Below are positions 1-23,996 of a DNA stretch of 27,786 bases, in pieces. How positions within the stretch are numbered: position 1 is the first letter of the stretch; each line of letters begins with the position of its first letter. The stretch is from a virus. The DNA lies in the IMG/VR virus record IMGVR_UViG_3300033142_001472, positions 1 through 27,786 of that record; one strand, given 5' to 3'. The translations under genes and the position numbers were made by a program. The notes under the pieces were generated by a model. That model did not search any database. It saw only the letters and a program-made list of their open reading frames with translations, and was not told where the DNA came from.

Positions 1-3000
1 GATTTATCTGCTCAGAAACACCAAAACCCATCATTAAAACCTCAAGCATGGTATCATAACCATTGCCGACCTTAGATTTAAGTAACGATAAGGCTTCTTT
101 GTTGTACTGGGCAGCATGCCACCCGCTATCCTCGATTTCTTCAAACAGATCATTCATCCATCCTGGGATGTTTGGATCTCTATCAGATCTTCCTGCACGA
201 TAGTATTCCAGGTATCCCTTCATGGCATCAACTAAAAATCCAGGGGTCTTTCGCATAGGGATGTTGGCAAAAGCTCGCATTGTTGCTGGTACAGCCATAC
301 CAAGGTTGGTAAGGTTGACCGCTACAGCTGCTGGCCGACCGGCCAGAAATTTCAACACAGCCAGGCCCTTGACCGTACCAATTATTCTGTCCACAGCTTC
401 GTCGTTTCGACCCATATCTTCCATATAGGTTAAAGCATCGTGAAAAATGTTTCGCTGTTTAACAGGATCAATACGCCGATTTTTAACAAATTCCAGATAA
501 TCCTTATAGGTGGTATCCAGACCCGCCTTGGTATGTTCGGCTTGATATTCCTGCCATGAAATATCGGTACCGGTCATGTGTCGCAGCATGTCCAGCATCA
601 TTTTCTTTTTAGCTTCACCGGCAGCTACGCCCCTCACATATTTAGCCATGCGTTGTACTGAATCTTCTTCATAACCCTTCCACACCCCAACACCGACAGC
701 ATCATTTCGCATAATCATATGCGTTCTAACACCACGACCCTTAAAGAGATTAGCCACACCTTCAGCCAGCTGCTTACCCATCTCCAACTGTGCCTTTTCC
801 AGCTCTGCCATAACGTCGGCGGCTACGCCCTTCTTCATCTCACCAGAGACCTGCTCCAGCGCCTTGTTCATTATCTCCTGAAACGCCACGACCTGTCCGG
901 CTATTTTAAAAATATCTTCCGGCATCTTATTAATCTTCTCAATATCAACAATATAATTATCATACTTTTTCCTGCTGGCTTCTTCAGCAGCGAAAAGCTC
1001 TGACTCAAAATGCTTAAGGATTGGATGGAGTTTGTTCTCATAACCCTTCTTGGGTTTTGCATACATGCTGAAACGTCCGGGCTTGCGGATTCGTGGCATA
1101 AAGTATCCACGCATATTACCCATTTTAGCCAGTGCTACCTTCAGGTCTACTTCCACCCGTGCGCCATCTACCCAGGTGGCAACACTGGGAAGACTCATTC
1201 CCTTAGCAGCGTATCGTTTAGTTAGATCGTTGATCGCTCCACGCAAAATGTTAAAAACATTATGAGACATTTCTCTGGTGCCCTGGACCCAATCCTGAGC
1301 CAATTCAGAGTATCCCAGCTCGGCCAATTTGGCTACTTCCAGCCGTGTCGCTTCAGCCCAACCATCATCATAACTATTGGCAGTACCAACAACCTTTCCG
1401 TCCGGATCTTTTATCTCGAAGGTCTTGCCCACTGATTCCTCGATGCCCTCTTTCATCTTTACCGTATAGCCATATTTATTCATATCGTTGTCGTCCAGGT
1501 ACTTATTGATGGCTCGATATTCTTTTTTGTTTGTTTTTTTCAGCTTTTTCCCGATTTGTAGCCTGGATTTTTTGTTAGAATCTTTTTCTATAAAGTTCAG
1601 CCCTTTGAAATAATTGTCTGAACGATTAGTTCCGTCCTCAACCATGGCTCCGGCAGCTGGCACCTTACCGAAATAATGAATAGGCGTAAACAACAGGCGT
1701 TCCCATGCGGTAGTATCTTCAAGTTCGCCAATTCCTATCTCTCTCTTTTTAAGCATCCACCGACCGATCTTGCCCCAACTCGTCATGGCATAATCACGCA
1801 GGGATCTACTCACATTTTCAGCAGCTGCGCTGTTGCCATGCTCTCGCATAAATTCTTCGTCCTGGGGAGTGGCTGTGGTATACTGTTCAACAGCCTCGAT
1901 ATCAACAGCACTTTCGTCAAAGACCGTATAGTTAAAATGCGGCGAATCTTTAATACCGGATAGAGTGCCGGACGGAAATTTGATACCATCTATACCTGCT
2001 CTTAAAAGGAACAGGGAAGCTTCTTTGTCTCCACCCAAAGCAGTAGATATTTCTTCATAAGCATTTTGCCCAACTCCAAGGTTTGTATAATCATAACTAT
2101 CTAAATCTTTATCGAACCAATGTTTTAATCTACCAAATGTTTTCATTCTATATTGAGCTATATCCTTTTTTTCAGATTGATTTATAATTTTTCCCAAGAT
2201 CTCTTTCGACAAAGCTTTGTCCCAATCCAACCAATCATATTCGCTGGGATCCTTACCCTTATGTAGGGTAACTTTATAAACCGCCTTGGTTTTTGGCCGC
2301 TTCATTGTCAGCTGACTGATAGAATCGGGACGGATAGCCCTTAGATAATCAATAGAATCCTGCCCGTCCTGACGATCCTTGCCCTCAGCGCTCTGACGGT
2401 CGAGTTCGTAGCCTGCAATAAGATTATCAACAACATCCTGGATGGCTGCTACCACACCCGCCTCGCCGGTATTATGGTAGGCTGCGTGCATAGCATAGTC
2501 TTCAATCATCAAATCTTCAACCAGCGTAGCTTTGGTAATAGCCAGTGTGTTTGCGTGACTGTCATCACGCGCCTTCTTCATCATTTCCGTTTTAAACATA
2601 GTCGGGCTGTAACTGGTTGGTTGACGACTTTCCCAAATTGCAACCGTTCCGCCAGCTGCTTTCCAGGAAAGGTCTATCCATTCATCCGCACCTAAGCGAT
2701 CAGCATAGTCTTTGGCAATGCTCTTTTCGTCAGTAAAATACAGACCCCACCCAAAGGCTTGTGCCCCTTCTCCAGATCCAATAAACCTGGTGCGAAAACG
2801 CTTAAAGAAAGAAGGGGATCCATGATAAGCAGTTGTCTGATATTGCGGAGCCAAAAACTTTCGGGCAAACGGTTTCTGTTTCGGACCCTGATAAATCTTG
2901 CCGGTCTCAATATCCCTGACAATGCTCTGGGGAGTAAGCTTAAATATACCCACGAACCCATTAATCAGGTCTTTGATCTTTTGTATGATCTTCTCAATAA

Positions 3001-6000
3001 TCCCTGTCTGTTTAGCTCGATTATTAATGGACCAGGAAATATAATTTGCCCTGTCTTCAGCGCCGCCCACATCTTTAATGTTTCTTGATTCCCACATGTT
3101 GTTGGCATGTAGTTCCTGGATGTGATCTCGCAGGATGTCTGATTCTTTAGATGTAATAAAGCCTACATCTTCCAGCCAGTGGTACGACTCGTGAGCTAAA
3201 ACCCAGTTGTCAGCCAGATCTTTATGTAATTCAATCTTGCCGTCAGCATATTTTCCTATGGCGGTTTCACCTTTTACAGGAACCCGACCCATGTTCACAT
3301 AAAAGTTGGCGTTATTAACATCCACCGAATCTACCGACTTGATTATTAGCTGCTGTCCATTAGGCGTGGTTACAGCTACAGATCCGTCAGCTTTTTTAAT
3401 CACGTTAGTGCCCTTAAATAAGCGCTTGATATCGTCCAAGGTGACACCCTGGTCACGCATATAGCGCTTAGCGTAGGCTTCTTTAGCTTGACGTGTGGCC
3501 ATATATTGCTCAATCGGTCCGGAAATCCGTACCGGCATTTCATTATAAAATACCTGACGGATGATTGATTCATTTTTAATCGGTGCCGTTTGGTCTCGAT
3601 ACTGGTCAGCCAACTTGCTCATACCGTTCTTCTCGCCGGCAAAAGCAGCCATAAAATCACTGGCGGTTGCTAAAGTAGTCTCGGTTTCCATGAGCATCAT
3701 CTGAAGATCAGTATCTGACTCTGCGGCTGCCTGCTTAGATAGGTTGCTGAGCTTATCAGAGGCCGACTTTAAGGCTTTCTTGATAGAGGGGTACTCTATA
3801 CCCAGAATCCCGAGTTGCGTCCCAAGATCGCGTTGTCTTGTAATGTCAAACCCGGTTTGTCGAAGGGCTTTAATCATCTGGGGAGAGTCTATTTTACTAA
3901 CCAGATCAGCAACATCCACAGTAGAAACACCCTTCTTGCCAACCTGACCATAATACACGCCATCAATCTTAACCAATGCGGCACGCTCAACTTCAGGCAA
4001 GCCTTCCGGATTTTGTGTTTTATAAAGTAAGAAATCCTGGCGCAATCTATCTTTAATCATTCGGTCGAAGCGCCGTTTATCCAGCTTGGGATCCGCCTGC
4101 TTCAAAGCATCAAACAGTTCACCGGTAGAAACCAGACCACCACGCTCAAAATTTGGATTAAGAGACACTGCAACTTCCGGAAGTTTTACCGTCAGTGCAT
4201 CACCCCAGGCTTTATGGTACAAGTCCTGAGTTTCAATCCATGTTTCGGCAACATCTTTAGGTATCTCTTTTTTGGTATCTTCATGAAACTGGATGTAGCC
4301 CTTAATGGTATGGTAACGATCTTGGATATATTTGCGCCACACCCTATCGGCGACTTCCAGCTTTTTGCCTACCGGATTAACACCAAGGAAACTGGCAAAG
4401 AGCTGAAGGTCTGCCAGCTTATATTTATTATCCATTTCCAGTACGGGCCGATCTGTAGAGGCAAAACTGTCCAAACTATCTGCCACATTCAGATTGTTTA
4501 TCACCCGTTCAAGCAACTCAGCCTTTGTGCCGGTTTCACTTGTTGAAACCAGTCTGGCCATACCGCGCAGCTCGTTAACGGTAAACTGTTCCGGTTTCAT
4601 TGTAGAAATGTCCAGATCACCCGAAAGCACTTTGTATGGTGTAGATCCTTTGGGGATACCCCAGTATTGATATTCAATACCATTAGTGAGTATCCGGAGT
4701 GCATCCGTGTGGGCTTCTCTGGTTACTGCTGCTTCGGCCCCTGTAAAATCTGCACGGTCAAATGCGCCGTCTCTTTTGCCAGCTTCGATAATCTCTTGTG
4801 GAGTGGGGAGTTGATCGCTGCCCCTGCCTCCCTCACGTTCTGCCGGACTAACTCGTCCAGGGCTGCGTCCAACCACTCGTTGGTTGAATAACCTAAGCTG
4901 CCTTGGGAGTCCTTTAGCGCGGCTGGGGTAATAGAGTTTGATGTCATTAGGTGTATCTCCTGTAGGTTCGTTGATTAATGTTTGGGCATCGAACAACTTG
5001 CCCTGCCTCATTGGTAAGGGCTTATATTCGGTGAGGATCGTTTCAACTGGGACCATGATTTCTTTCACGATCTCTTTGATTTTTTCCTTCTCGACCACAC
5101 TTTCACGGGTCAACTCTTTGTCCGGTACCTGCAAGACAGCTTCCGCAATTCTTAAAGTCTGGGGAAACAGGTGGGCAGTTTTTTTGTGCATTGCTTCACG
5201 GGCAACAGCAAACTTTTCGTCGTGTGCGCCTTGGAAAGCATGGGTAAATTCGTGATCGATCAAACCTTTAAGATATGTGGCATAGTGTAGCGGAGACTTG
5301 GCAGCGTCTTTATCCAGAGATAACGGATTCATACCCATCTCTCCCAAGCCAGCATTATACTCACCCTCAACAGCTCCACCATCTATCACCACAGATAGCA
5401 TCGGATAAAATTTTTCAAGTTTACCGCCAGCTGCTCCGGCATACATCCTGGCCACCGTTTCAAAGGCTAATATATGTTTGGCATGAAACATCGACCCACC
5501 CTTGTAACCTTTAACCCCCGTGTCAACCTTTTGATTCAGTTGTTCTATGGGTGTGTAAGGAATGGTCTGGTTCAGATATGGTCGGCGCAGCTGCTCCTCG
5601 ATAGTGAGTTTTTCAATTGGCTTCTGTGATTCGTTCCAAATACCAGTAACGGTTTTTATCAGGTCGTTGTAACCTTTATCCGTTTTGGTTTTTTCGATAG
5701 TTTTCTTCCACTCGCCTCGATCTTTTAGGTTCTGCCAGGTAAATTCCACTGTAGTCCGTTTAGCCGACAGCGGATCCACAGCAAATTTAGCAACAATCTT
5801 TTCAGCCAACTGCTTGCCGTCCCACTTCAACTCCATGCGTGAATCGGTCAGTGGATAATAGTTTCCCCCAGGAGTTTGGCTGGTAGCAACATCAATTATC
5901 AGCGCACCAGGGAAACCTTCATTATAAATATTAGTAATGCCCTGAGTAAGCTTTGCTCCAGTCTGTTTGTCCACCAGGCGGATTATCATCTTTTGGTTAT

Positions 6001-7318
6001 ACCCGGATGGAGCCTTGGGATAGTATTTCATCGAAAGTTCTGACTGATGATCGCCCTTATTTACAACATCTGTAAATTCTTTAAACTTCTTCCCACCAAA
6101 CGGATTCTTAATCTTAGCATTGTTTAAAGAAACGGAAACATTCTTGGGCAACTCGGTGGTCTCCACATAACGCTTGGAGTCGTTATCAATAATTTGACTT
6201 TCGGCCTCTACGCGAATGGACGTGCCCTGCCTTGGCTTAGACAGTGTACCAACCTGGTCAGCATTTTGTGCCCGGACCCCATCGTGTTGATTGTCTCTGG
6301 TTTCAAGCACCCAGGTGGATGACTCGTGTGGCCCCAGAATAACAGCCTTGGCAATACCGAACCCACCAAATCGCCCAACCTTATCTTTGCCAGTACCGTG
6401 CAGGGCCAGAAACTTATCTCTAATATCAGTGTCCGACATACCGACACCGTTATCAATAATTTCAAAACTGTTGTGGTAATAATCTTTACCGGCCTTGGCT
6501 ATTCTTTTGTCATCAAGCTTACGACCCCGTACAGGATAATCTTCATCAGAAGATTCGTGCCCTGAAGACAGATATGTTCGGATATCAATCGTTCCCTTTT
6601 TGATTTCGCCGGTTTCCAAACTTTCCAGCACCGCATCCAATGAATTTTGTAAACCTTCGCGCACGCTAACGTTTCCCAAATTAGACGTGTAAGGATACTT
6701 GCTTTTAGCTTCATTGTTCCAGGCTCTGGCCACATTAACACCATAGCCAGCCGACACTTTTTCTATGCTGTAACTGACACCAAACTGACCAGCTGGATCC
6801 GGATTACCCATCAGAACCATACGGGTATGATTGGCTCCAATCAGGTTCTCCTGGATTCCCTTAATCGCACCCTCCACCTTGCGTTTGTACTTTGGATCCT
6901 TGGCATACTTTTTGGTCCGACGTGCTGCAATAATGCCACCCTCAACAGGAATAGGATAGGTGCCATCGTAAACGTCACTTTTGGCAAAGGTCTTGGAATC
7001 CCAAAACATTTTCTGTAATTCGGTGATCCTGGCTTTTAGTTTGGGCAAATTGTTCCGGACAAATTCAAAGTTAAACCACCGGCCAGGCGTAGTATCGATC
7101 TTCAAGATCTGATCTTTCATCTGGCCATGCAGCTGATCAATGATGCTGTCATATTCTTTGTCCAGCGTGTCCAGCACGTCCTGAACCGCCTGGATCTCAG
7201 CTTCACCTTTGGCCATGTCCATATCTTTATAGTCGTCAGTCAGATCTCTCAAGCGCTTTGCTGTTCCAGGATCAAAACGCTTACCCATTTTTTTAAGACA
7301 ATATGCAAGTGTTGCCAT
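1..7318 (-). CDS. Giant polyvalent protein: GHKL ATPase, two metallopeptidases, SAPs, ADP-ribosyltransferase (3' end beyond window)
   Basis: Starting at ATG 7318, the frame has no stop for 2439 codons and leaves the left edge. Domains in order: helical head; GHKL/Bergerat ATPase ~200-370 (N-box REGLQNSLDA 220-229, DNGVGM 289-294, GRFGGFG 315-321, GTS at 365); HEXXH metallopeptidase HEFTH 689-693; two SAP-like DNA-binding motifs at ~907-943 and ~962-995; second metallopeptidase HESYH 1376-1380; polyvalent-type ADP-ribosyltransferase ~1494-1805 (AYHGSP with H1499, GEGAQAFGWGLYF, RAGIDGIKFPSGTL, FDESAV); helical C terminus with RGYFMPRIRKPGRFMY. Polyvalent proteins are known to be injected with phage DNA to counter host defences. 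The start follows AGGA at 11 nt. Domain calls are strong; the overall role is inferred. Confidence 0.85.
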   Translation of the reverse strand, partial: MATLAYCLKKMGKRFDPGTAKRLRDLTDDYKDMDMAKGEAEIQAVQDVLDTLDKEYDSIIDQLHGQMKDQILKIDTTPGRWFNFEFVRNNLPKLKARITELQKMFWDSKTFAKSDVYDGTYPIPVEGGIIAARRTKKYAKDPKYKRKVEGAIKGIQENLIGANHTRMVLMGNPDPAGQFGVSYSIEKVSAGYGVNVARAWNNEAKSKYPYTSNLGNVSVREGLQNSLDAVLESLETGEIKKGTIDIRTYLSSGHESSDEDYPVRGRKLDDKRIAKAGKDYYHNSFEIIDNGVGMSDTDIRDKFLALHGTGKDKVGRFGGFGIAKAVILGPHESSTWVLETRDNQHDGVRAQNADQVGTLSKPRQGTSIRVEAESQIIDNDSKRYVETTELPKNVSVSLNNAKIKNPFGGKKFKEFTDVVNKGDHQSELSMKYYPKAPSGYNQKMIIRLVDKQTGAKLTQGITNIYNEGFPGALIIDVATSQTPGGNYYPLTDSRMELKWDGKQLAEKIVAKFAVDPLSAKRTTVEFTWQNLKDRGEWKKTIEKTKTDKGYNDLIKTVTGIWNESQKPIEKLTIEEQLRRPYLNQTIPYTPIEQLNQKVDTGVKGYKGGSMFHAKHILAFETVARMYAGAAGGKLEKFYPMLSVVIDGGAVEGEYNAGLGEMGMNPLSLDKDAAKSPLHYATYLKGLIDHEFTHAFQGAHDEKFAVAREAMHKKTAHLFPQTLRIAEAVLQVPDKELTRESVVEKEKIKEIVKEIMVPVETILTEYKPLPMRQGKLFDAQTLINEPTGDTPNDIKLYYPSRAKGLPRQLRLFNQRVVGRSPGRVSPAEREGGRGSDQLPTPQEIIEAGKRDGAFDRADFTGAEAAVTREAHTDALRILTNGIEYQYWGIPKGSTPYKVLSGDLDISTMKPEQFTVNELRGMARLVSTSETGTKAELLERVINNLNVADSLDSFASTDRPVLEMDNKYKLADLQLFASFLGVNPVGKKLEVADRVWRKYIQDRYHTIKGYIQFHEDTKKEIPKDVAETWIETQDLYHKAWGDALTVKLPEVAVSLNPNFERGGLVSTGELFDALKQADPKLDKRRFDRMIKDRLRQDFLLYKTQNPEGLPEVERAALVKIDGVYYGQVGKKGVSTVDVADLVSKIDSPQMIKALRQTGFDITRQRDLGTQLGILGIEYPSIKKALKSASDKLSNLSKQAAAESDTDLQMMLMETETTLATASDFMAAFAGEKNGMSKLADQYRDQTAPIKNESIIRQVFYNEMPVRISGPIEQYMATRQAKEAYAKRYMRDQGVTLDDIKRLFKGTNVIKKADGSVAVTTPNGQQLIIKSVDSVDVNNANFYVNMGRVPVKGETAIGKYADGKIELHKDLADNWVLAHESYHWLEDVGFITSKESDILRDHIQELHANNMWESRNIKDVGGAEDRANYISWSINNRAKQTGIIEKIIQKIKDLINGFVGIFKLTPQSIVRDIETGKIYQGPKQKPFARKFLAPQYQTTAYHGSPSFFKRFRTRFIGSGEGAQAFGWGLYFTDEKSIAKDYADRLGADEWIDLSWKAAGGTVAIWESRQPTSYSPTMFKTEMMKKARDDSHANTLAITKATLVEDLMIEDYAMHAAYHNTGEAGVVAAIQDVVDNLIAGYELDRQSAEGKDRQDGQDSIDYLRAIRPDSISQLTMKRPKTKAVYKVTLHKGKDPSEYDWLDWDKALSKEILGKIINQSEKKDIAQYRMKTFGRLKHWFDKDLDSYDYTNLGVGQNAYEEISTALGGDKEASLFLLRAGIDGIKFPSGTLSGIKDSPHFNYTVFDESAVDIEAVEQYTTATPQDEEFMREHGNSAAAENVSRSLRDYAMTSWGKIGRWMLKKREIGIGELEDTTAWERLLFTPIHYFGKVPAAGAMVEDGTNRSDNYFKGLNFIEKDSNKKSRLQIGKKLKKTNKKEYRAINKYLDDNDMNKYGYTVKMKEGIEESVGKTFEIKDPDGKVVGTANSYDDGWAEATRLEVAKLAELGYSELAQDWVQGTREMSHNVFNILRGAINDLTKRYAAKGMSLPSVATWVDGARVEVDLKVALAKMGNMRGYFMPRIRKPGRFSMYAKPKKGYENKLHPILKHFESELFAAEEASRKKYDNYIVDIEKINKMPEDIFKIAGQVVAFQEIMNKALEQVSGEMKKGVAADVMAELEKAQLEMGKQLAEGVANLFKGRGVRTHMIMRNDAVGVGVWKGYEEDSVQRMAKYVRGVAAGEAKKKMMLDMLRHMTGTDISWQEYQAEHTKAGLDTTYKDYLEFVKNRRIDPVKQRNIFHDALTYMEDMGRNDEAVDRIIGTVKGLAVLKFLAGRPAAVAVNLTNLGMAVPATMRAFANIPMRKTPGFLVDAMKGYLEYYRAGRSDRDPNIPGWMNDLFEEIEDSGWHAAQYNKEALSLLKSKVGNGYDTMLEVLMMGFGVSEQIN

Positions 7319-7390: not shown

Positions 7391-7690
7391 TTATTTTAAT
7401 TTGCAAGCTCTACAATAGAAGACATACGTTCCTGCACTTTGGATATTCGCTGACATTTCCAGCTCTATTGTAGCATCCTGGGCAATTACGAAATTGTCAT
7501 CAACTCTTTCAATATACCAGTAGTACCCAAGAGCTAAAGTTGAAGCGTCCCACCTAACTCCAAACTGTTCCCCGGTAAAGAACTCATGCTCATACTGAGC
7601 TTCTGCCTTATTTACTAAGACCAATGAAGCAAAGAAAGTTATCCATAACAAGATAAGTGCTACATTAATCCAAGCTTTTCTTTTATCCAC
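7391..7690 (-). CDS. Exported FN3-like protein with signal peptide
   Basis: The start GTG 7690 is chosen because GGAG lies 9 nt before it; ATG 7696 has only 3 nt of spacing. The 99-residue product begins DKRKAWINVALILLWITFF and continues ASLVLVNKAEAQ. This is a basic n-region, a hydrophobic core and an AEA|Q type cleavage site after residue 31. The rest is a short FN3-like fold (FGVRWDASTLALGYYWYIER, AGTYVFYCRACKLK) with a C-terminal CxxC-like pair (C..C). A secreted phage protein in a virion cluster is unusual. It could stay membrane-anchored, and may block superinfection or help lysis; neither is shown. Confidence 0.6.
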   Translation of the reverse strand: MDKRKAWINVALILLWITFFASLVLVNKAEAQYEHEFFTGEQFGVRWDASTLALGYYWYIERVDDNFVIAQDATIELEMSANIQSAGTYVFYCRACKLK

Positions 7691-9371: not shown

Positions 9372-11162
9372 TTAATCCGGTATCAAAAGTACATTAAGAG
9401 TTAACCCATTGTCTTTATCTATAGTTTCTATTATGGGTTGAGTTTTATAAAAAGGAGATATAGAGCTTTTTCTGGCTCTACCAACCATATTTTGATTTGA
9501 AGCTAAAGAGCGTGTATCTGTAACAATTCCACTTACATTGGTTAGCTTATTAAACATAACTTCTGTTGAAACAATAGTTCCAGTTGCCGGAGTTACAGGG
9601 GTATTTTCAACAGCATAATTATATGCGTCAGCCGTGGTTACTGTTATTTGAGCACATATATTATAATCGTCTTGATTTGCTCCAGCTATTCTTACCCAAT
9701 CGTTAGTAACCATCCCATGTCCATTATGAACTACATAGGCTACATCCCCTATTCTCGATACAGTAACTGATTCATGATAATTAAGAGGCCCCAAAGCGTC
9801 CGCAGCTTCAAAAACAACTCTTGCATTTTCTATAACGACACTATCTTTAACATTTTTGACTGTGATTTGAGTGGTAACTGAAGTCCCCAAAAAGGTTACG
9901 GAGCTCCCTTCATATGTTGTAGGATCTGCCCCATTGTTCTTATTAATTGAAATGGCAGAACCAGACGAATTGAGAACATCATAGGTGTTTCCGGAAAAGA
10001 ATAAAGCATTATAAGCGTAGGGAGTTCCAACATCACTGGGCATTTCAATACCAGCTCCCACTGTATTACCAATAAAACTACAATCAATCATATCAATGCT
10101 TTCATTCCATAATACCGCAGCATCAACATTTGAAGTATTAATAAAAAAGCAGCTTTCAACACTCGCATCGTCAGGATCAACTTGACCGCAAGCCTCAAAA
10201 CTACATCCCAAAATTTCAACATCTGTAGTTGCCCCAGGGAAAGTTATAGCGCCAGACCCATAAACAGTGCAGCCGTATAGTTTAAAGTTATCAACATCTA
10301 CGTCAGACCCATCTATAATAAATTTTGGAGTCTGTGCTGATGATTGAACCCGGATAATACAGCCTTTAATTCCAGCAGTTCCAACCTTTTCACCTAATAT
10401 AAACTCCGTTAATCCTGTACCATTATCAACTACTGTAAATCCATATAACGATGTATTAACCGGCCTGTCTTCAAACACTAACACCTGAGACAAATCTTCA
10501 AATTCACAAGCGTTTACGCCTGCTGCATCACCAAATATTATGGAGCCATTGAGATAAAAAATACCTCCGATTTTTCGTATAATACCCCAGCCGTTTGTAG
10601 TATCTTCGTCTTCAGCTAAAATGTCGTCAAAATCAATAGCTCCACCAGCACCATTATCCCCATAAACTATTAATCCATCACCGGCATAAATATGGTCAAT
10701 CCAGGTGTTTTGTGCTTTTTTAGAGCCGGTTGTCAGGTTGACTCTGATGCCAAGGGTTGTAATAGTTGTCATGGTGGGCTTAGTCCCAGAAGAGACAGCA
10801 GCCGATAAATCAACAACAAGATTATACCACCCCCCAAGATAAGTTGTGCTTCCACTAACATTCCAATAACCCGTATTTGCCCCATCACTCAAATATACCT
10901 GGATACCACCATTAGCGTCTGTATCCAACTCTTTGAGTGCTGAACACATAAACCACATTCTAAGATGCGTGGTTCCAGACAAATCCTCGGTAACGGATAT
11001 TTCAGAATCATTGGCTCCGGAATCTATAAATTCAAACCCTATACATTGCAGGCCCTCTTTAAAAAAATCAGTTACATCTGACGGGGTACTGCCTGTCCAA
11101 TCATTTTCATTCTCACAAAGATTGATTGCATTATATCCGCTAAGACTTACTGATAGTGCCAT
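9372..11162 (-). CDS. Tail spike-like protein with carbohydrate-binding and beta-helix regions
   Basis: The 596-residue protein starts MALSVSLSGYNAINLCENEN. Residues ~1-170 look like a jelly-roll carbohydrate-binding domain (HLRMWFMCSALKELDT, GGWYNLVVDLSAAV, TTITTLGIRVNLTTG). Residues ~200-410 show short repeated strands with periodic Cys, Gly and Asn (FKLYGCTVYGSGAITFPGAT, VEILGCSFEACGQV, DMIDCSFIGNTVGAGIEM), as in right-handed parallel beta-helices of tailspikes. The C-terminal ~150 residues are beta-rich. ATG overlaps the upstream TAA and AAGGA lies 6 nt before it. No classical lyase or hydrolase catalytic motif is identifiable by eye. It is probably a host-recognition or structural spike. 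Confidence 0.6.
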   Translation of the reverse strand: MALSVSLSGYNAINLCENENDWTGSTPSDVTDFFKEGLQCIGFEFIDSGANDSEISVTEDLSGTTHLRMWFMCSALKELDTDANGGIQVYLSDGANTGYWNVSGSTTYLGGWYNLVVDLSAAVSSGTKPTMTTITTLGIRVNLTTGSKKAQNTWIDHIYAGDGLIVYGDNGAGGAIDFDDILAEDEDTTNGWGIIRKIGGIFYLNGSIIFGDAAGVNACEFEDLSQVLVFEDRPVNTSLYGFTVVDNGTGLTEFILGEKVGTAGIKGCIIRVQSSAQTPKFIIDGSDVDVDNFKLYGCTVYGSGAITFPGATTDVEILGCSFEACGQVDPDDASVESCFFINTSNVDAAVLWNESIDMIDCSFIGNTVGAGIEMPSDVGTPYAYNALFFSGNTYDVLNSSGSAISINKNNGADPTTYEGSSVTFLGTSVTTQITVKNVKDSVVIENARVVFEAADALGPLNYHESVTVSRIGDVAYVVHNGHGMVTNDWVRIAGANQDDYNICAQITVTTADAYNYAVENTPVTPATGTIVSTEVMFNKLTNVSGIVTDTRSLASNQNMVGRARKSSISPFYKTQPIIETIDKDNGLTLNVLLIPD

Positions 11163-13808: not shown

Positions 13809-14143
13809 TATTTAATCCTCTTTAGGGTTGCATTTTTAATCAAATCTTTTGCGTCCCTGCTGGTGACAGTAACCTCCCATTCCATAGGTGGCTCCACTTC
13901 TGGATAAGGTGGTATGGTAATCACCGGTGCCTCCATTGTAACAACCGGCATTGGAGTGCTGCGGGACAAATGCAAAATAACACTATCTACCAGCTTTCCG
14001 GTTTGTTCGTTTGCCTCAGATAGCTGGCTGACCGCGTTCTGTACTGTTATAATTAATGGATCTATAGCCTTTTTTGTTTTCTTGGCAGCTTTGGGTTGAA
14101 CCGCACCAGATTCTTTCCCATTATCTTTTAAAAAGAGTTTCAT
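13808..14143 (-). CDS. Hypothetical small protein (111 aa)
   Basis: I use ATG 14143, which overlaps the upstream TGA (ATGA) and has GGAG 11 nt before it. A GTG at 14155 lies inside the giant gene and has its Shine-Dalgarno site directly abutting. The protein starts KLFLKDNGKESGAVQPKAAK with a Lys-rich disordered head. A short helix follows (IITVQNAVSQLSEANEQTGK), then a Pro-rich beta segment (PVVTMEAPVITIPPYPEVEP) and a basic tail. I do not recognise the family. It sits between the GGDEF giant and a membrane-anchored coiled-coil protein, so it may be a small virion or lysis-region component. Confidence 0.6.
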   Translation of the reverse strand: MKLFLKDNGKESGAVQPKAAKKTKKAIDPLIITVQNAVSQLSEANEQTGKLVDSVILHLSRSTPMPVVTMEAPVITIPPYPEVEPPMEWEVTVTSRDAKDLIKNATLKRIK

Positions 14144-17100
14144 GTTTTCAGGCACTCCATTAACGAATAAAATTCGTTGACATTTTCTTCCATATCAGAG
14201 AAAGCTTCCCGCGCTGGCTCCTCTGTTTCGGTCATCTCTCCAGTCTCAGGATCCATATATCGCACCGTAGCCGTTTCGTCCATGGGCATAAATTCCATAT
14301 TCTCACGAACAAATTTAGCTTTGCGCGATTTAACCGTAGGGGCCTCCTCTGGCGACGGAAGGGTCTCAGCCAGAACCACATCAGGGGTTACAAGTTTGGG
14401 CGGTGGTGCTGGCAACTGAGGGCGCACAGGAGCCTTTTTGGGGGTTGGCACAACCTTGAGCTTTACAGGTTTGACAGCTTCTCCTCTTTTCGAGGCTACC
14501 GCAGGGATTATTTCAGCTTCAACAGCCAAAGGTACTGGTGCAACTCCAGCCTCGGTCGCTGGCACCACCCCCAACTGCTCATTGGGCAGGTACTCTTGAG
14601 CTTGCTGGAGCGCACCAGAACTTACGGCAAAGGCCAACGTACTGGGTGACATCCCGATATCTTCAGCCTCATAGGCTAATTCTTCCAAAATGAAATTCCA
14701 GGCATTTGTATCAGGTAGGGCCGGGCTTTTAGACAAACGATGAACCTGAGCCATAGTCCAAACAACAGCGTCTTCAACAGTGTCTTCAGGTGTCCACTGA
14801 GGGTTGACTCCAGTCAACCCGACATCAACAACCTGTTCATCTATTGAGACAGGTTTGGCTTGGCCAAGACTCCTGCCCACTTGTTCATTCTCTCTGGCTT
14901 GGGAAGCCAGAAGGCCCTCGCCTTTTTGACTCCACCCGACTGGGAGATAATTGACTTCAACTCTTGTCCCAGGGATCCTTGCTCTGGTGGGTTTCTCTTT
15001 ACCTTCCTCAACGATGGTTGCGTATTCCGCTGGGAGTCCATCTTTGATTTTTTCGGCAGCTGATATCGCATTAGATACTGTACCTCCCGTGGCTGACGTA
15101 AAAGCCAGTCCATTAAGTTGATAATGTATGTTGTCGTCTTTTCCTAAGAAATCAAAAATTATTTGAGATGCTGAATCTTTAACAGCAAGACGTAAAGTTT
15201 CAAGTTCGTCCCTGCTGACAGAATCCCTGTCAATTCCGCTGACTCCGTATTCGTCACCACCCATACGGTACAGCTTAACCCTATCGGTAATTCCAGTGGT
15301 TTCAGCTGCTTCAGTCATAGCCTGGCCCATCAGAGCCAATGCCTGATCACCCATGGCATGTCCACCGACAACCCTTTCGCCGGTCGGCAGCATACCTTCC
15401 TTGGTCATGTCGTTATAATATTTAAGCCCATCCACATCGATAGATACAAAAGGAACGTCCGCACCAAATTCTTCTTTATGCAACTCCAGAGCGTTTCTGT
15501 TTAATAATCCGGTAAGAACGTCTACGGTGGCAAACTTTCTGGTAAATTCCAGAGCCTCAGTTCTTTCAGCCGGAGTCATCTTGTCAATGTCGGCTGTCAT
15601 TTGCCAGTTTTCACGACGCTCAAGACCGCTACGATTGTCTTCTTCAACCGGCACTTCCGTTTGACGACGATCATCCCCTTCTCGAATCGCATCCGGATTT
15701 TCGAAAAACTCCGCCAGCTCAGGAAGCTTATTGGCAAAATCTTCTTCCATTTGGGCATTGGAATAAACATTCGTTAATTGATGCAACGGCTCAATATCTT
15801 CAATACCTGGCAGCGTCCTGGGTGCGTCTGTAATCCCTTGCGGGCCACCAATATCATACATAGTCTGCCAGTAGTTGTTACGTTTAACACCCACAACATT
15901 AAGTTCGTCTGAAGGTGGAATCTGGATCCGGTCGGTTAACGAATCTAAAACCATGTTGCCGGCTCCATCGTCTTCCGATACCACAGTATATTTATCCCAG
16001 CTGTATCCATCACCCTCAATCGCTGCCTGATCACCCAGCTCCAAAGAATCAGCCTGGACAGCAGTCCCAAGGATCTCATATCCATCTGATTCCAGTTGGG
16101 CAATCTCGCCACCCAGAAACAACTCGGGATCCGACGCTTTCATAGCCTGGGCAATTCCCATGATATGGTCAGATATAGCTAACTGACGTGCGGTTAATAG
16201 TTTGCCGGTGTCCAGCTTATCGGTCAGGTCGAAAAAATCTTTTCGGTTAAGGCCGTATTTAAACTCCTCTTTCTTTTCCTGCATCTCGCGCACGGGAATC
16301 TTCTTGTCCGGTTCAATAACCGTCTTGCCGCTTTTATCTTTTTTAATTCGTGAATCCCGATACCTGATAGTAAACGGTTCTTTAAACCATCCAGGATAAC
16401 TGGATCCATATCCGTGCGCCATACCTTCTGCAAGATTTAGATTTCCAGCTTCATCTATAAAGGTTACACCCTTCGGTTCGGCAGATCCAAGTTGTTCGGC
16501 CATCATGCTATAGGCAGCCCGCAAATCCGGTGGAATCTGGCTGCGATCAACAAAGTAAAAATCAGACAAGGTTCCCAGCAAATTAGCCCGCCGGTCATAT
16601 TCTTCACGGGTTAAACCAATTGGCTCTATACCACTGAAAGCAGGACGGTCAGGGATACCGTTGCCCCTAATGATACCGATCTGTTCCATTGCTCCTTCGT
16701 ATTGATCTTGCGTTTGGACCAATCCCAGATCCTGGAGTATGCGCTCTTTTTGGATGTCGTCTAAGTTGGGCTGGCGTGTAAAAACGTCGTTGCCGACTAT
16801 GCGAAGCGTTTTTGCAAATTCATCAGCAGCTTCCAGCGCTCGCTCTTGCCGGTTTTCAATTTCAACAGGATTATCCGGCATAGCAGCATTTATCTCAGCA
16901 AACCGTTCTCGGAAATTGGACTTCAAAAAAACCTGCTGTTGTTCCGGGGTCATCATATCCAGATGGGCTTGAGTCACTGAAGACGCCTTTCTGTTTGGCA
17001 CACGTCTGGAAATAATATCGTTATCAGAAAAAGGTACAAAGTCACCTTCGTCTGCTGCCTCCATAGCCGGACCTTTGCCAAGCTTATCTTCTTCCATTCG

Positions 17101-18156
17101 AAGTCGGTGATATCTTTCGTCTTCCTCTTTCTTCGTAGCCCTATCTGTTTTCCTCTGCTTCCTGGCAGCAACTGCACCAAAGGGAGCAAAAAGCAACGAC
17201 CATGGAGCTGTTAGTGTGCCTTCATACATGCCCTGCTTGGTGGTTTCCCATAAGCTATCTTTAAATAGTTCCGCCCGTTTCCACAGGTCTTTGTCTGGAT
17301 TAGTAGCAAAGATATTAATAAAGGAATCAGGATAGGCTTGTGCCCATTCAGTCAGGAACTCTGTACCAACAACCTGGCCAAGAGATTTAAGACCTTCAAG
17401 CATCGGCATCCGGAGCTTAAACTTATTCATGGCATGTAAAAACGGCACCATCTCTAAAGCGCCCTGGACAACAGCATTGCCAAGTGACCAATAATAAGCA
17501 TCTTCCGGCGGTGTGCCTTCCTGAATCAAACCGTCATAAGTGCCACCCAGGATCTGCATACCGATCATTCCAAAACCAGCCCATGGTCCACCAACTGCTG
17601 AAGCCAGTATCATAGATCCAATCTGGGGCCCTACCGATACCAACCCCTCAAACCAGTTATGGGTTTCCAGCCCTCTGGGATCTGCCTTAAGATATTCAGA
17701 CTCAGCCAGCATAGACAAAGCCATCTCGTGGTTTTCATCCATGGCCATAATGCCGGGACCAAATTTGGTAATTGTATCTGCCAGAGCTTTAACCGCTGTG
17801 CTTTCGGTATAATAAGGAACATACTTTTGTTTCATCCGGTTGAGCCATTCAGAAGTTGATAATGCACCAATGGCCATGTTGCGACCAACATCTTTGGTAT
17901 GGGCACCCAGGATTTCTCCCAGCCGTTGTGTATGTTCAGAACCCCATTCCTTACTGGTAGTCATAATCTCCCAGGGGTTTAACTCAACAGGAGGATGTTT
18001 TTCGGGCCTGTCTTCATCGTAAGAATCAATACCCTTGTAAAATTCCTCTATTGGCCGCGGTGTCTCTCCGGACAACAAACGCGAAAACATCGGGTCGTCA
18101 TCATCTTCGTAAAGACCACTACCGGCATAAGCTAAAATATCGTCGTTAATTCCCAT
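14140..18156 (-). CDS. Giant internal virion protein with GGDEF domain
   Basis: This is a 1338-residue protein. Residues ~170-240 hold Gly/Ala-rich hydrophobic stretches (IGSMILASAVGGPWAGFGMI) that could cross membranes during ejection. A basic/acidic linker lies near 335-375. Residues ~870-1050 form a GGDEF domain: DVLTGLLNR, then D907-V-D909-G-L-K912, N915-D916, GHAMGD (D937), and GGDEY at 966-970. The metal, guanine and catalytic positions known from diguanylate cyclases such as PleD are all retained. The product-inhibition RxxD site is absent: residues 957-960 are TDRV. A Pro-rich linker lies near 1210-1290. The Shine-Dalgarno site is weak. The stop overlaps the next start as ATGA. The domain is clear; whether it makes c-di-GMP is unknown. 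Confidence 0.75.
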   Translation of the reverse strand: MGINDDILAYAGSGLYEDDDDPMFSRLLSGETPRPIEEFYKGIDSYDEDRPEKHPPVELNPWEIMTTSKEWGSEHTQRLGEILGAHTKDVGRNMAIGALSTSEWLNRMKQKYVPYYTESTAVKALADTITKFGPGIMAMDENHEMALSMLAESEYLKADPRGLETHNWFEGLVSVGPQIGSMILASAVGGPWAGFGMIGMQILGGTYDGLIQEGTPPEDAYYWSLGNAVVQGALEMVPFLHAMNKFKLRMPMLEGLKSLGQVVGTEFLTEWAQAYPDSFINIFATNPDKDLWKRAELFKDSLWETTKQGMYEGTLTAPWSLLFAPFGAVAARKQRKTDRATKKEEDERYHRLRMEEDKLGKGPAMEAADEGDFVPFSDNDIISRRVPNRKASSVTQAHLDMMTPEQQQVFLKSNFRERFAEINAAMPDNPVEIENRQERALEAADEFAKTLRIVGNDVFTRQPNLDDIQKERILQDLGLVQTQDQYEGAMEQIGIIRGNGIPDRPAFSGIEPIGLTREEYDRRANLLGTLSDFYFVDRSQIPPDLRAAYSMMAEQLGSAEPKGVTFIDEAGNLNLAEGMAHGYGSSYPGWFKEPFTIRYRDSRIKKDKSGKTVIEPDKKIPVREMQEKKEEFKYGLNRKDFFDLTDKLDTGKLLTARQLAISDHIMGIAQAMKASDPELFLGGEIAQLESDGYEILGTAVQADSLELGDQAAIEGDGYSWDKYTVVSEDDGAGNMVLDSLTDRIQIPPSDELNVVGVKRNNYWQTMYDIGGPQGITDAPRTLPGIEDIEPLHQLTNVYSNAQMEEDFANKLPELAEFFENPDAIREGDDRRQTEVPVEEDNRSGLERRENWQMTADIDKMTPAERTEALEFTRKFATVDVLTGLLNRNALELHKEEFGADVPFVSIDVDGLKYYNDMTKEGMLPTGERVVGGHAMGDQALALMGQAMTEAAETTGITDRVKLYRMGGDEYGVSGIDRDSVSRDELETLRLAVKDSASQIIFDFLGKDDNIHYQLNGLAFTSATGGTVSNAISAAEKIKDGLPAEYATIVEEGKEKPTRARIPGTRVEVNYLPVGWSQKGEGLLASQARENEQVGRSLGQAKPVSIDEQVVDVGLTGVNPQWTPEDTVEDAVVWTMAQVHRLSKSPALPDTNAWNFILEELAYEAEDIGMSPSTLAFAVSSGALQQAQEYLPNEQLGVVPATEAGVAPVPLAVEAEIIPAVASKRGEAVKPVKLKVVPTPKKAPVRPQLPAPPPKLVTPDVVLAETLPSPEEAPTVKSRKAKFVRENMEFMPMDETATVRYMDPETGEMTETEEPAREAFSDMEENVNEFYSLMECLKT

Positions 18157-22397: not shown

Positions 22398-23996
22398 CTA
22401 TAAGTCTGCAATTAAAAATATATTATCCCCAGATCCGATCTGCACAATCTGATCAGCCCTGTTAGGATAACTGGTTCCGCCCATCTGCAATAAAACCTCA
22501 GCGGTTTGTTTCACAAAATAAAGCGTATCGGTGCGTGGATCTACATGCACAGCCGGAGCATAATTCGTATTAGGTTCAGCGCCTAAAAGCAAGGTTGTAA
22601 TCTTTTTTTGGTCAAAATCTATGACCAGAACGCGACCCTCAAAGTCACCCTGATCATAAAATCCATAGTACCGTCCATTCTGATAGGCCCCTATAAAGGT
22701 ATCTGGTTCGTAATCTTCCCATTCGTTTTTAGTAAAAAACCCCTCGGTGGCATTAACAGCTCGGCCTCCCGAAACCAGGACAAGGCCATCACTGGTAGCA
22801 TAAAGAACACCAAACTTATATTCAGCCAAAGACCGTTTGGATATACATGGTTGCGATTCCGGCATTTTGTTTGGCGTCATAGAGTATGGCGTAGTGCCTG
22901 TAACGATATACGGATTTTGATCTGTAGCTACCACCAGGTTGTTCTCCATCACGCCCAGGGACACAATGGAAAATTCCAAAGTAAGCACATATTCTTCCGG
23001 CCATGCGTGCGGCTGGAACGGCTCGGAAAAATAAAGATCCTTTCCGACAAAACCCGCCAATATCCCACCGGGTAATGCCACAATTCCAAGCAGATTGTCC
23101 GGTGGTGGCAACCATCGTGGAGGCGAAAGCCCTGTCTGTAAAACCTCTCCCAATTCAGTATCTTCTTTGCTGTCGGAATAAACCGTAGCTGTCGCTGTAA
23201 TCTGATCTACATACTGATACTGAGCTGCTGTTTCACCCTGATTCAATCTGTAAATAAACTTGGACAATATCGTGTTTTCATAAGCTCTCCAGATAACCGT
23301 ATTGTCGGTTGTGTCACCATCTACAACGGTTCCCCAAGCAGGCTCTGGGCCACCTGTTGTGCCAGCCTGAACACATTTATAAACATACCCATTGGGAGTG
23401 CTGGGAATTACAAAATCAGTTAAATCATAACCCTGTCCAGTAAGCCAGGTCATGTCCATATTGGTAAGATCGATCTGGTCTCCCGGTAATGCTCCGACCA
23501 CTACATCAGAAACCGGTGACGGGGCGGACTCCTCACCCCAGGTTGTCATTACAGTCCACGCGTAAACCAGATCTCTGGCATCACCGGAACCCCCACCCAC
23601 ATTATTGGTTGTTGGCTTTATCCATGGCTGTGGGCTGGCCATGGAATAAAAATTAATCGGCAGCGCACCGCCACCGGTAGTGGCCTCAGCCTCGTTTGAT
23701 TTCTTGGGAATCCCATCCCCAGTATAATAAAACTTAAAATCAGTATCTCCGGATACCGGCCCTAAAACAACATCCACGTCAGCTGACCACTCCAACCAAA
23801 ACTGAGACCGATATAGATAAATCGTTCTAACCAGTACGCCAAGCTTTGCATCGGCATCTTTCAGCTCATTATCCCAGGGCCGTATCTCCCCGGAAACAAG
23901 CTTAACGTTGCTGGCCACCTGCGCTTCATTGGCTTCCAGAAGCTGCCTGGCCCTGACCGGCCTGAGACCACTGAATAATGGGATGCTTATTTTCAT
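22398..23996 (-). CDS. Tail nozzle-like protein
   Basis: The 532-residue protein begins ISIPLFSGLRPVRARQLLEA and continues NEAQVASNVKLVSGEIRPW. This is the 'select loci, Asn, Gly-x-x-x-Pro' opening shared by podoviral nozzle (tail tubular protein B-like) proteins. The body is beta-rich with propeller-like blades (LVYAWTVMTTWGEESAPSPV, LLGIVALPGGILAGFVGKDL, YGFYDQGDFEGRVLVIDFD). It should form the tube below the adaptor through which DNA leaves. Compared with relatives I remember, it stops early, and a C-terminal segment seems to be supplied by the separate gene at 21085-21609. Family assignment is moderate, from pattern and position. Confidence 0.6.
   Translation of the reverse strand: MKISIPLFSGLRPVRARQLLEANEAQVASNVKLVSGEIRPWDNELKDADAKLGVLVRTIYLYRSQFWLEWSADVDVVLGPVSGDTDFKFYYTGDGIPKKSNEAEATTGGGALPINFYSMASPQPWIKPTTNNVGGGSGDARDLVYAWTVMTTWGEESAPSPVSDVVVGALPGDQIDLTNMDMTWLTGQGYDLTDFVIPSTPNGYVYKCVQAGTTGGPEPAWGTVVDGDTTDNTVIWRAYENTILSKFIYRLNQGETAAQYQYVDQITATATVYSDSKEDTELGEVLQTGLSPPRWLPPPDNLLGIVALPGGILAGFVGKDLYFSEPFQPHAWPEEYVLTLEFSIVSLGVMENNLVVATDQNPYIVTGTTPYSMTPNKMPESQPCISKRSLAEYKFGVLYATSDGLVLVSGGRAVNATEGFFTKNEWEDYEPDTFIGAYQNGRYYGFYDQGDFEGRVLVIDFDQKKITTLLLGAEPNTNYAPAVHVDPRTDTLYFVKQTAEVLLQMGGTSYPNRADQIVQIGSGDNIFLIADL

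Follow-up and report, generated by a model that had tools for sequence, protein, structure and literature searches.

The stretch of viral DNA analysed here, which we call the window (27,786 nucleotides; IMG/VR record IMGVR_UViG_3300033142_001472, positions 1 to 27,786), encodes a giant polyvalent protein whose N-terminal part, about residues 80-745, is, judged by sequence comparison, one conserved module in which a GHKL ATPase is joined to a zinc peptidase resembling WLM/Wss1. The pair was found in 14 proteins, 7 of them polyvalent and 7 standing alone, and in all 14 an N-box is followed by HExxH. The original prediction had placed the first peptidase between other domains, where it might allow self-cleavage; since the ATPase-peptidase unit is conserved and also exists alone, it is likelier that this peptidase belongs with the ATPase. 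The polyvalent architecture itself was confirmed, with the GHKL ATPase, the WLM-like peptidase, a SAP domain, a second HExxH region, and an ART segment all lying in one frame (Table 1).

Table 1. Features of the polyvalent protein gene and of two upstream late genes (window positions; residues of the polyvalent protein)
Feature	Residues	Window position	Strand	Basis or remark
Polyvalent protein gene		2..7318	minus	ATG at 7318; 2439 codons; 3' end cut by window end
GHKL ATPase plus second (S5/transducer/middle-like) domain, predicted	191-516	5771..6748	minus	Fold matches, alignments
N-box REGLQNSLDA	220-229	6632..6661	minus	Alignment
G1 box DNGVGM	289-294	6437..6454	minus	Alignment
G2 box GRFGGFGIAK	315-324	6347..6376	minus	Alignment
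G3 box QGT	364-366	6221..6229	minus	G365, T366 invariant in 8 aligned proteins
YPLTDSRM loop	488-495	5834..5857	minus	R494 invariant in 8 aligned proteins
Peptidase 1, predicted WLM/Wss1-like minigluzincin	600-745	5084..5521	minus	Profile, Pfam, fold matches
HEFTHAFQGAH	689-699	5222..5254	minus	HExxH-x5-H, predicted zinc site
SAP domain	910-943	4490..4591	minus	Pfam 24.3 bits on isolated segment, cut-off 23.9
Peptidase 2 region (HESYH), putative	1267-1476	2891..3520	minus	Homologous to a section of the G004 protein (4248 aa)
ART-PolyVal-type ART, predicted	1494-1810	1889..2839	minus	H1499, Y1527; D1801 by eye
C-terminal region	1820-2439 (to 2802 in L045)	2..1861	minus	No Pfam match above cut-off
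1338-aa upstream protein, GGDEF-like motif RMGGDEYGV		14140..18156	minus	Pfam GGDEF 19.2 bits (cut-off 23.8); phrog_5594, E 3.9e-6
Internal virion protein, upstream late gene		22398..23996	minus	phrog_511, E 8e-110

The six motifs quoted in the original prediction, as parts of one frame of more than 2439 codons, are all present and in order (DNGVGM, residues 289-294; GRFGGFG, 315-321; HEFTH, 689-693; HESYH, 1376-1380; AYHGSP, 1497-1502; GWGLYF, 1523-1528); the strand, which the prediction left unnamed, is the minus strand, and the frame reads without a stop up to the window edge. A contig from a deltaproteobacterial metagenome-assembled genome (MAG) (L045; 66,499 bases) derives from the same phage, matching the window over 9587 bases at 99.97% identity and over 7404 bases at 99.99%; there the frame runs to its end at 2802 aa, with 2439 of 2439 shared residues identical. 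A phage contig of 61,221 bases (G001) encodes a complete homologue of 2828 aa that is 82% identical and keeps all six motifs. Because of this homologue and the complete, identical frame in L045, the motifs are not due to chance. A further relative, G002 (L003/L011), is 100% identical to the window across 2249 and 2676 bases; it is without 44 bases of the ART segment (window about 2677-2720) and its frame is therefore broken there, perhaps because it is a variant, perhaps through misassembly. The ART segment frame is unbroken in the window, L045, and G001. Just upstream of the gene, L045 carries 90 bases (9588-9677) that are extra relative to the window (about position 7404), and a small upstream frame is altered.

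Motifs and predicted fold support the proposal that the N-terminal part is an Hsp90/MORC-type GHKL ATPase. Across eight aligned proteins, E221, N225, D228, D289, G291, G293, G318-G321 (GGFG in the window), K324, G365, T366, and R494 are invariant, as are H689, E690, and H693 on the peptidase side. By analogy with GHKL enzymes, E221 is presumably the catalytic base and N225 the Mg ligand; the YPLTDSRM loop resembles what we take to be the catalytic-arginine loop of Hsp90, with R494 as the candidate catalytic arginine. Pfam profiles bore out the original prediction in part: HATPase_c matched the window protein at 17.1 bits, below its cut-off of 26.4, and ART-PolyVal was likewise below threshold, while HATPase_c_3 exceeded its cut-off of 25 in three of six relatives scanned (G003, 25.7; G006, 28.4; L046, 29.1), fell below it in G001 and G005, and no HATPase match was listed for G004. 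An AlphaFold model of residues 1-770, built from an 8-row alignment, had a mean pLDDT of 62.4 and a pTM of 0.44, with pLDDT below 50 at 154-201, 253-279, 300-311, and 319-323, among others. Despite this moderate model confidence, both the Bergerat fold and the second domain are supported by the structural matches: Foldseek returned 123 PDB matches at E<=1e-3, with TRAP1 on top (6.6e-11), and VIA-align of residues 191-516 gave topoisomerase VI-B at Z 17.3 (268 aligned residues, 4.3 Å), followed by TRAP1 (Z 16.0), Hsp90 (15.9), and MORC2 (15.6). The assignment of residues 200-370 to a Bergerat fold thus held in the fold comparison, with low model confidence in parts of the region. Profile searches against PDB sequences gave nothing significant with a six-row module profile (best match, a sigma factor at E 0.28; TRAP1 at E 1.2) and no relevant match with a two-row profile.

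The ATPase resembles Hsp90/TRAP1, MORC, and topoisomerase VI-B in its four GHKL motifs, its two-domain organization, and a conserved arginine in the second domain, but it is too divergent for PDB sequence matches and is followed by a zinc peptidase. The place of the Hsp90 C-terminal dimerization domain was considered in this respect: residues 560-745 alone match Wss1 best, with TRAP1 listed at Z 6.2, and full-length Hsp90 rows extend to about residue 720 only at the cost of an rmsd of about 17-19 Å. General Pfam listings contained no MORC-type CW zinc finger.

Both HExxH peptidase motifs of the original prediction are present. For the first, profile, Pfam, and fold comparisons are each weak and jointly point to a Wss1-like minigluzincin; it is possibly a minigluzincin of another kind. 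An acidic pair and an aromatic residue come after HEFTH-AFQGA-H, as in the HExTH-x5-H-[DN]-E-x-[FY] site of the WLM/Wss1 and SPRTN crosslink proteases, which are also the best fold match. A peptidase-1 profile searched against the PDB at E<=10 returned only two sequences, S. pombe and yeast Wss1/WLM (E 0.16 and 0.47). In Pfam, the isolated segments of the window protein (15.8 bits) and of L041 (21.1 bits) had a single listed family, WLM (cut-off, 26.0); because the curated cut-off was missed, we call the peptidase WLM-like and not a WLM member. In a separate model of residues 560-745 (pLDDT 69.6, pTM 0.65), the four best fold matches were Wss1 entries (Z 8.7 over 104 residues, 8.6, 8.0, and 7.8), followed by selecase (7.0), and the Wss1 values lie just above the Z of 7-8 that, by the tool's own remark, models often reach even when nothing matches them clearly; Foldseek gave this model no match with E at or below 1e-3 (best E, 0.32). 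A further fold match, at Z 5.5, was to 6mdx, a protease of DNA-protein-crosslink repair that we take to be SPRTN. Wss1 is activated by DNA binding, cleaves itself, and partners with the ATPase Cdc48 (PMC4559962), whereas the window protein carries its ATPase in the same chain, and that ATPase is of the GHKL and not the AAA type.

The polyvalent members of the module set are the window protein, its G001 homologue, and proteins of G003 (4547 aa), G004 (4248 aa), G005 (about 3225 aa), G011 (2508 aa), and G006/G007 (about 2242 aa, counted once). Stand-alone members are encoded by a Levybacteria MAG contig (501 aa), the viral contig G160 (about 495 aa), and plasmids of Pseudomonas silesiensis, Pseudomonas sp. 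FeN3W, Rhizobium leguminosarum, Bosea, and Methylorubrum (about 560-930 aa, as open frames). HExxH-x5/6-H is kept in 13/14 module proteins, very divergent ones included, a proportion that is no population estimate since the set was collected by likeness to either half; the exception, in G011, has HEINH and a Glu in place of the third zinc-ligand His. One stand-alone protein (L062) reads GDGRGM in place of DxGxGM. None of six GHKL controls (three annotated rIIA proteins, Arthrobacter phage Atuin 154, an HtpG-like protein identified by reading, and the Poribacteria protein L047) contains HExxH-x5/6-H. Two of these control groups had been candidates for the family: rIIA, whose GHKL parts match, was ruled out with HExxH in 0/3 annotated proteins, and L047 was ruled out with a GHKL part and no HExxH-x5/6-H. 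By eye, L047 (9773-11764) has a C-terminal end resembling the Shedu-type nuclease of VcSduA.

The fairest test of the pairing approached it from the ATPase side: three plasmid proteins were matched only at query residues 12-272, 18-242, and 21-128 of 561, and the peptidase was present in all three. From the peptidase side, a pattern scan found nine contigs, of which six (two with the same protein) were already known and were found by construction because the pattern had been typed from the family's own peptidase motif; among the three new contigs, G160 had a GHKL part in the same frame, L069 was cut by the contig end, and L066 was without GHKL. Of 14 stretches hit by a DNA pattern for the G2 motif, 6 belonged to long homologous frames and the other 8 to chance or unrelated ones. 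Alignment-led scans found relatives in 7/28 viral-contig stretches and 3/560 genome-contig stretches, one of the latter three being L047, which is without the peptidase. The family was reached only through the DNA-pattern scan; scans for close relatives gave G001 and G002, or G001 only. In tblastn searches of phage records, the whole protein matched ART fragments only (4 records), residues 1-619 gave one match at E 5, and a stand-alone Pseudomonas protein gave nothing; against 148 genomes from the phylum of G009 the last query, a weak test with one divergent sequence, found only the window's own phage contig. In a tree of the module, six polyvalent sequences formed a supported group (100/99), and branches were long and positions unsure for G011, the Levybacteria protein, and G160. 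On two Pseudomonas plasmids (0.9-1.2 Mb), the gene directly after the stand-alone one is itself conserved (22% identity, E 1e-15; L061 8010-9254, minus strand, and L062 7659-8792), and the two plasmids have more neighbors in common.

The companions of the pair differ among its polyvalent carriers. Of the two SAP motifs in the original prediction, the window protein yielded one, which exceeds the Pfam cut-off as an isolated segment only (19.6 bits in the whole-protein scan); the other (residues 955-1009) gave no SAP match at E<=10 in Pfam. Residues 1267-1476 form a putative second HExxH peptidase region, which aligns over about 210 residues at 35% with the G004 protein and has E1421 conserved in 3 aligned proteins; it matched no Pfam peptidase family, and in a scan for it 3/24 stretches were true, every one in an already known contig. 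The predicted ART-type segment is upheld by its motifs, AYHG and GLYF standing at the start of ART-PolyVal, and by an ART-PolyVal score of 28.7 bits on the isolated segment (E 2.6e-6), which is below the curated 31.2. phrog_873 matches residues 1748-1812, and since the matches to the two ends of the ART have 205 residues between them (1543 to 1748), the segment probably holds a long insertion; an alignment with the ART region of L041 was misaligned and was discarded. Among five polyvalent relatives scanned, ART-PolyVal passed in G003 (34.4 bits) and G005 (91.6), failed in G001 (28.4), and was not listed in G004 or G006. In this Pfam scan of G001 and G003-G006, the pair was accompanied by LPD23, SAP, ART-PolyVal, and a sub-threshold Kinase-PolyVal in G003, by ART-PolyVal in G005, and by LPD38 in G004; in G006 (L042 9167-15889, 2241 aa), MuF (47.2 bits, cut-off 29.6), the ATPase-peptidase module, a PolyA_pol head domain, and HD share one frame. 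The distant 2508-aa phage protein of G011 (L044 9434-16957) contains GHKL, HEINH, and HEFSH.

The polyvalent gene is the last in a minus-strand run of late genes. Besides the internal virion protein of Table 1, a 174-aa frame matches the C-terminal part of an internal virion protein (phrog_511, E 8e-12), and the same region also gave a tail-fiber match and, weakly, a virion structural one (phrog_8003, 5.5e-4); G001 additionally matches portal, major head, terminase, and tail-spike proteins. The MuF domain of the G006 relative likewise speaks for a virion setting. Among the neighbors of four relatives, 0/9 proteins matched a structural PHROG. By gene order, the context fits a virion protein and falls short of proof. 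The 1338-aa GGDEF-like protein encoded upstream is possibly a second polyvalent virion protein. Known phage polyvalent proteins (PMC5512222) are similarly giant and multidomain, combine ART with an HExxH metallopeptidase, and are encoded near virion genes; the window protein differs from them by the GHKL ATPase fused to a WLM-like peptidase.

What this protein does can be approached from its architecture, its conserved catalytic motifs, the fold matches, and the recurrence of the pair, all of which come from computation. We tentatively favor, at somewhat less than an even chance, a polyvalent, virion-borne protein that enters with the DNA and whose front end is an ATP-gated GHKL/S5-Wss1-like protease. 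Such a protein would be packaged in the virion and let into the host along with phage DNA; on binding ATP, the GHKL dimer would close like a clamp over DNA or over a client protein, and the closed clamp would hand the captured protein to the Wss1-like protease for cutting. A precedent for a GHKL domain with proposed control over a C-terminal effector is the Shedu protein VcSduA (PMC12137116). The SAP domain may help to hold DNA, and the ART may modify host proteins; T4 Alt, an ART of a different clade, is injected from the virion (PMC5512222). The targets would be DNA-bound proteins, to the benefit of the phage, and a protease acting on such proteins would suit a protein that arrives with phage DNA. 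A broader version, in which GHKL-WLM is a new class of ATP-gated proteases that strip DNA-bound proteins, injected by phages to clear host proteins, defense proteins included, from the incoming genome, and carried alone by plasmids, seems to us rather unlikely.

The position of the gene, after internal virion genes in the late region, would also suit a chaperone-protease for maturation, a module that refolds or trims the giant protein or other head proteins in the producing cell and is no injected weapon. Autoprocessing has been proposed for the DdrB metallopeptidase of P1 (PMC5512222), and activated Wss1 cleaves itself (PMC4559962), but the pair stands alone (about 500-930 aa) without recognized virion domains, on plasmids among other places, and the second HExxH region could do the processing; we regard this explanation as unlikely. 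The existence of stand-alone forms means that the module need not work from the virion, which counts against the favored reading. A further reading, which we hold to be improbable, is that a stand-alone GHKL sensor gates an immune protease and that phages captured it for use against the host or rival phages. VcSduA, an anti-phage Shedu protein that serves cellular defense, offers a precedent, as its N-terminal GHKL ATPase is followed by a C-terminal effector whose control by GHKL its authors propose, with a middle domain modeled as a clamp; where the module has a protease, this effector is a nuclease of the PD-(D/E)xK type (PMC12137116). Five plasmids carry stand-alone forms, and L047 appears by eye to be a GHKL protein with a VcSduA-type nuclease end; against this, PADLOC-DB matched 0/7 proteins (the window protein included), and a viral contig encodes one of the stand-alone forms and a MAG contig of unclear origin another.

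Two other readings strike us as very unlikely. T4 rIIA is also a phage protein with an N-terminal GHKL ATPase and belongs to the poorly understood counter-defense factors (PMC7824862), so the GHKL part might target a host exclusion system with help from the peptidase. An annotated rIIA occurs in 1/8 records matched by the L046 protein, and annotated rIIA accounts for 19 among the best 20 of 21 matches of the L044 module, but the similarity spans about 110 ATPase residues (E 6e-4 to 9e-3), and the three annotated rIIA proteins, in stand-alone frames of 721-756 codons, are without HExxH, whereas the window protein has HExxH-x5-H. The fold matches to MORC and topoisomerase VI, together with the SAP domain, could also be read as a DNA-compaction or ejection factor, with a GHKL clamp that organizes head DNA or draws DNA in and a peptidase that is a vestige or has a regulatory role; since 13/14 module proteins keep HExxH-x5/6-H, even when very divergent, the peptidase is not expected to be a vestige.

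The original prediction had called GHKL an unusual partner in polyvalent proteins, and this agrees with the main text of Iyer 2017 (PMC5512222), where GHKL, HSP90, histidine kinase, and gyrase each have 0 mentions. In the open-licence literature searched, the available parts of PMC13299392, PMC7159879, PMC9503650, PMC13373217, PMC5512222, PMC7824862, PMC2292703, PMC4559962, and PMC12137116 contain no description of a GHKL-peptidase pairing; the coupling of GHKL to a nuclease effector is already known from Shedu VcSduA (PMC12137116). Polyvalent proteins are a recognized store of phage effectors, and the pair, if active, would be a route of ATP-controlled proteolysis distinct from AAA+ proteases and might clear DNA-bound proteins at infection. 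The activity is directly testable, since the shortest stand-alone forms have about 500 residues.

A short motif of the window protein, QLRLF (residues 807-811; window 4886-4900, minus strand), follows a coiled-coil-like stretch, and RQLRLF occurs in the G004 protein too. It resembles what we take to be a sliding-clamp-binding motif and may be a chance occurrence.
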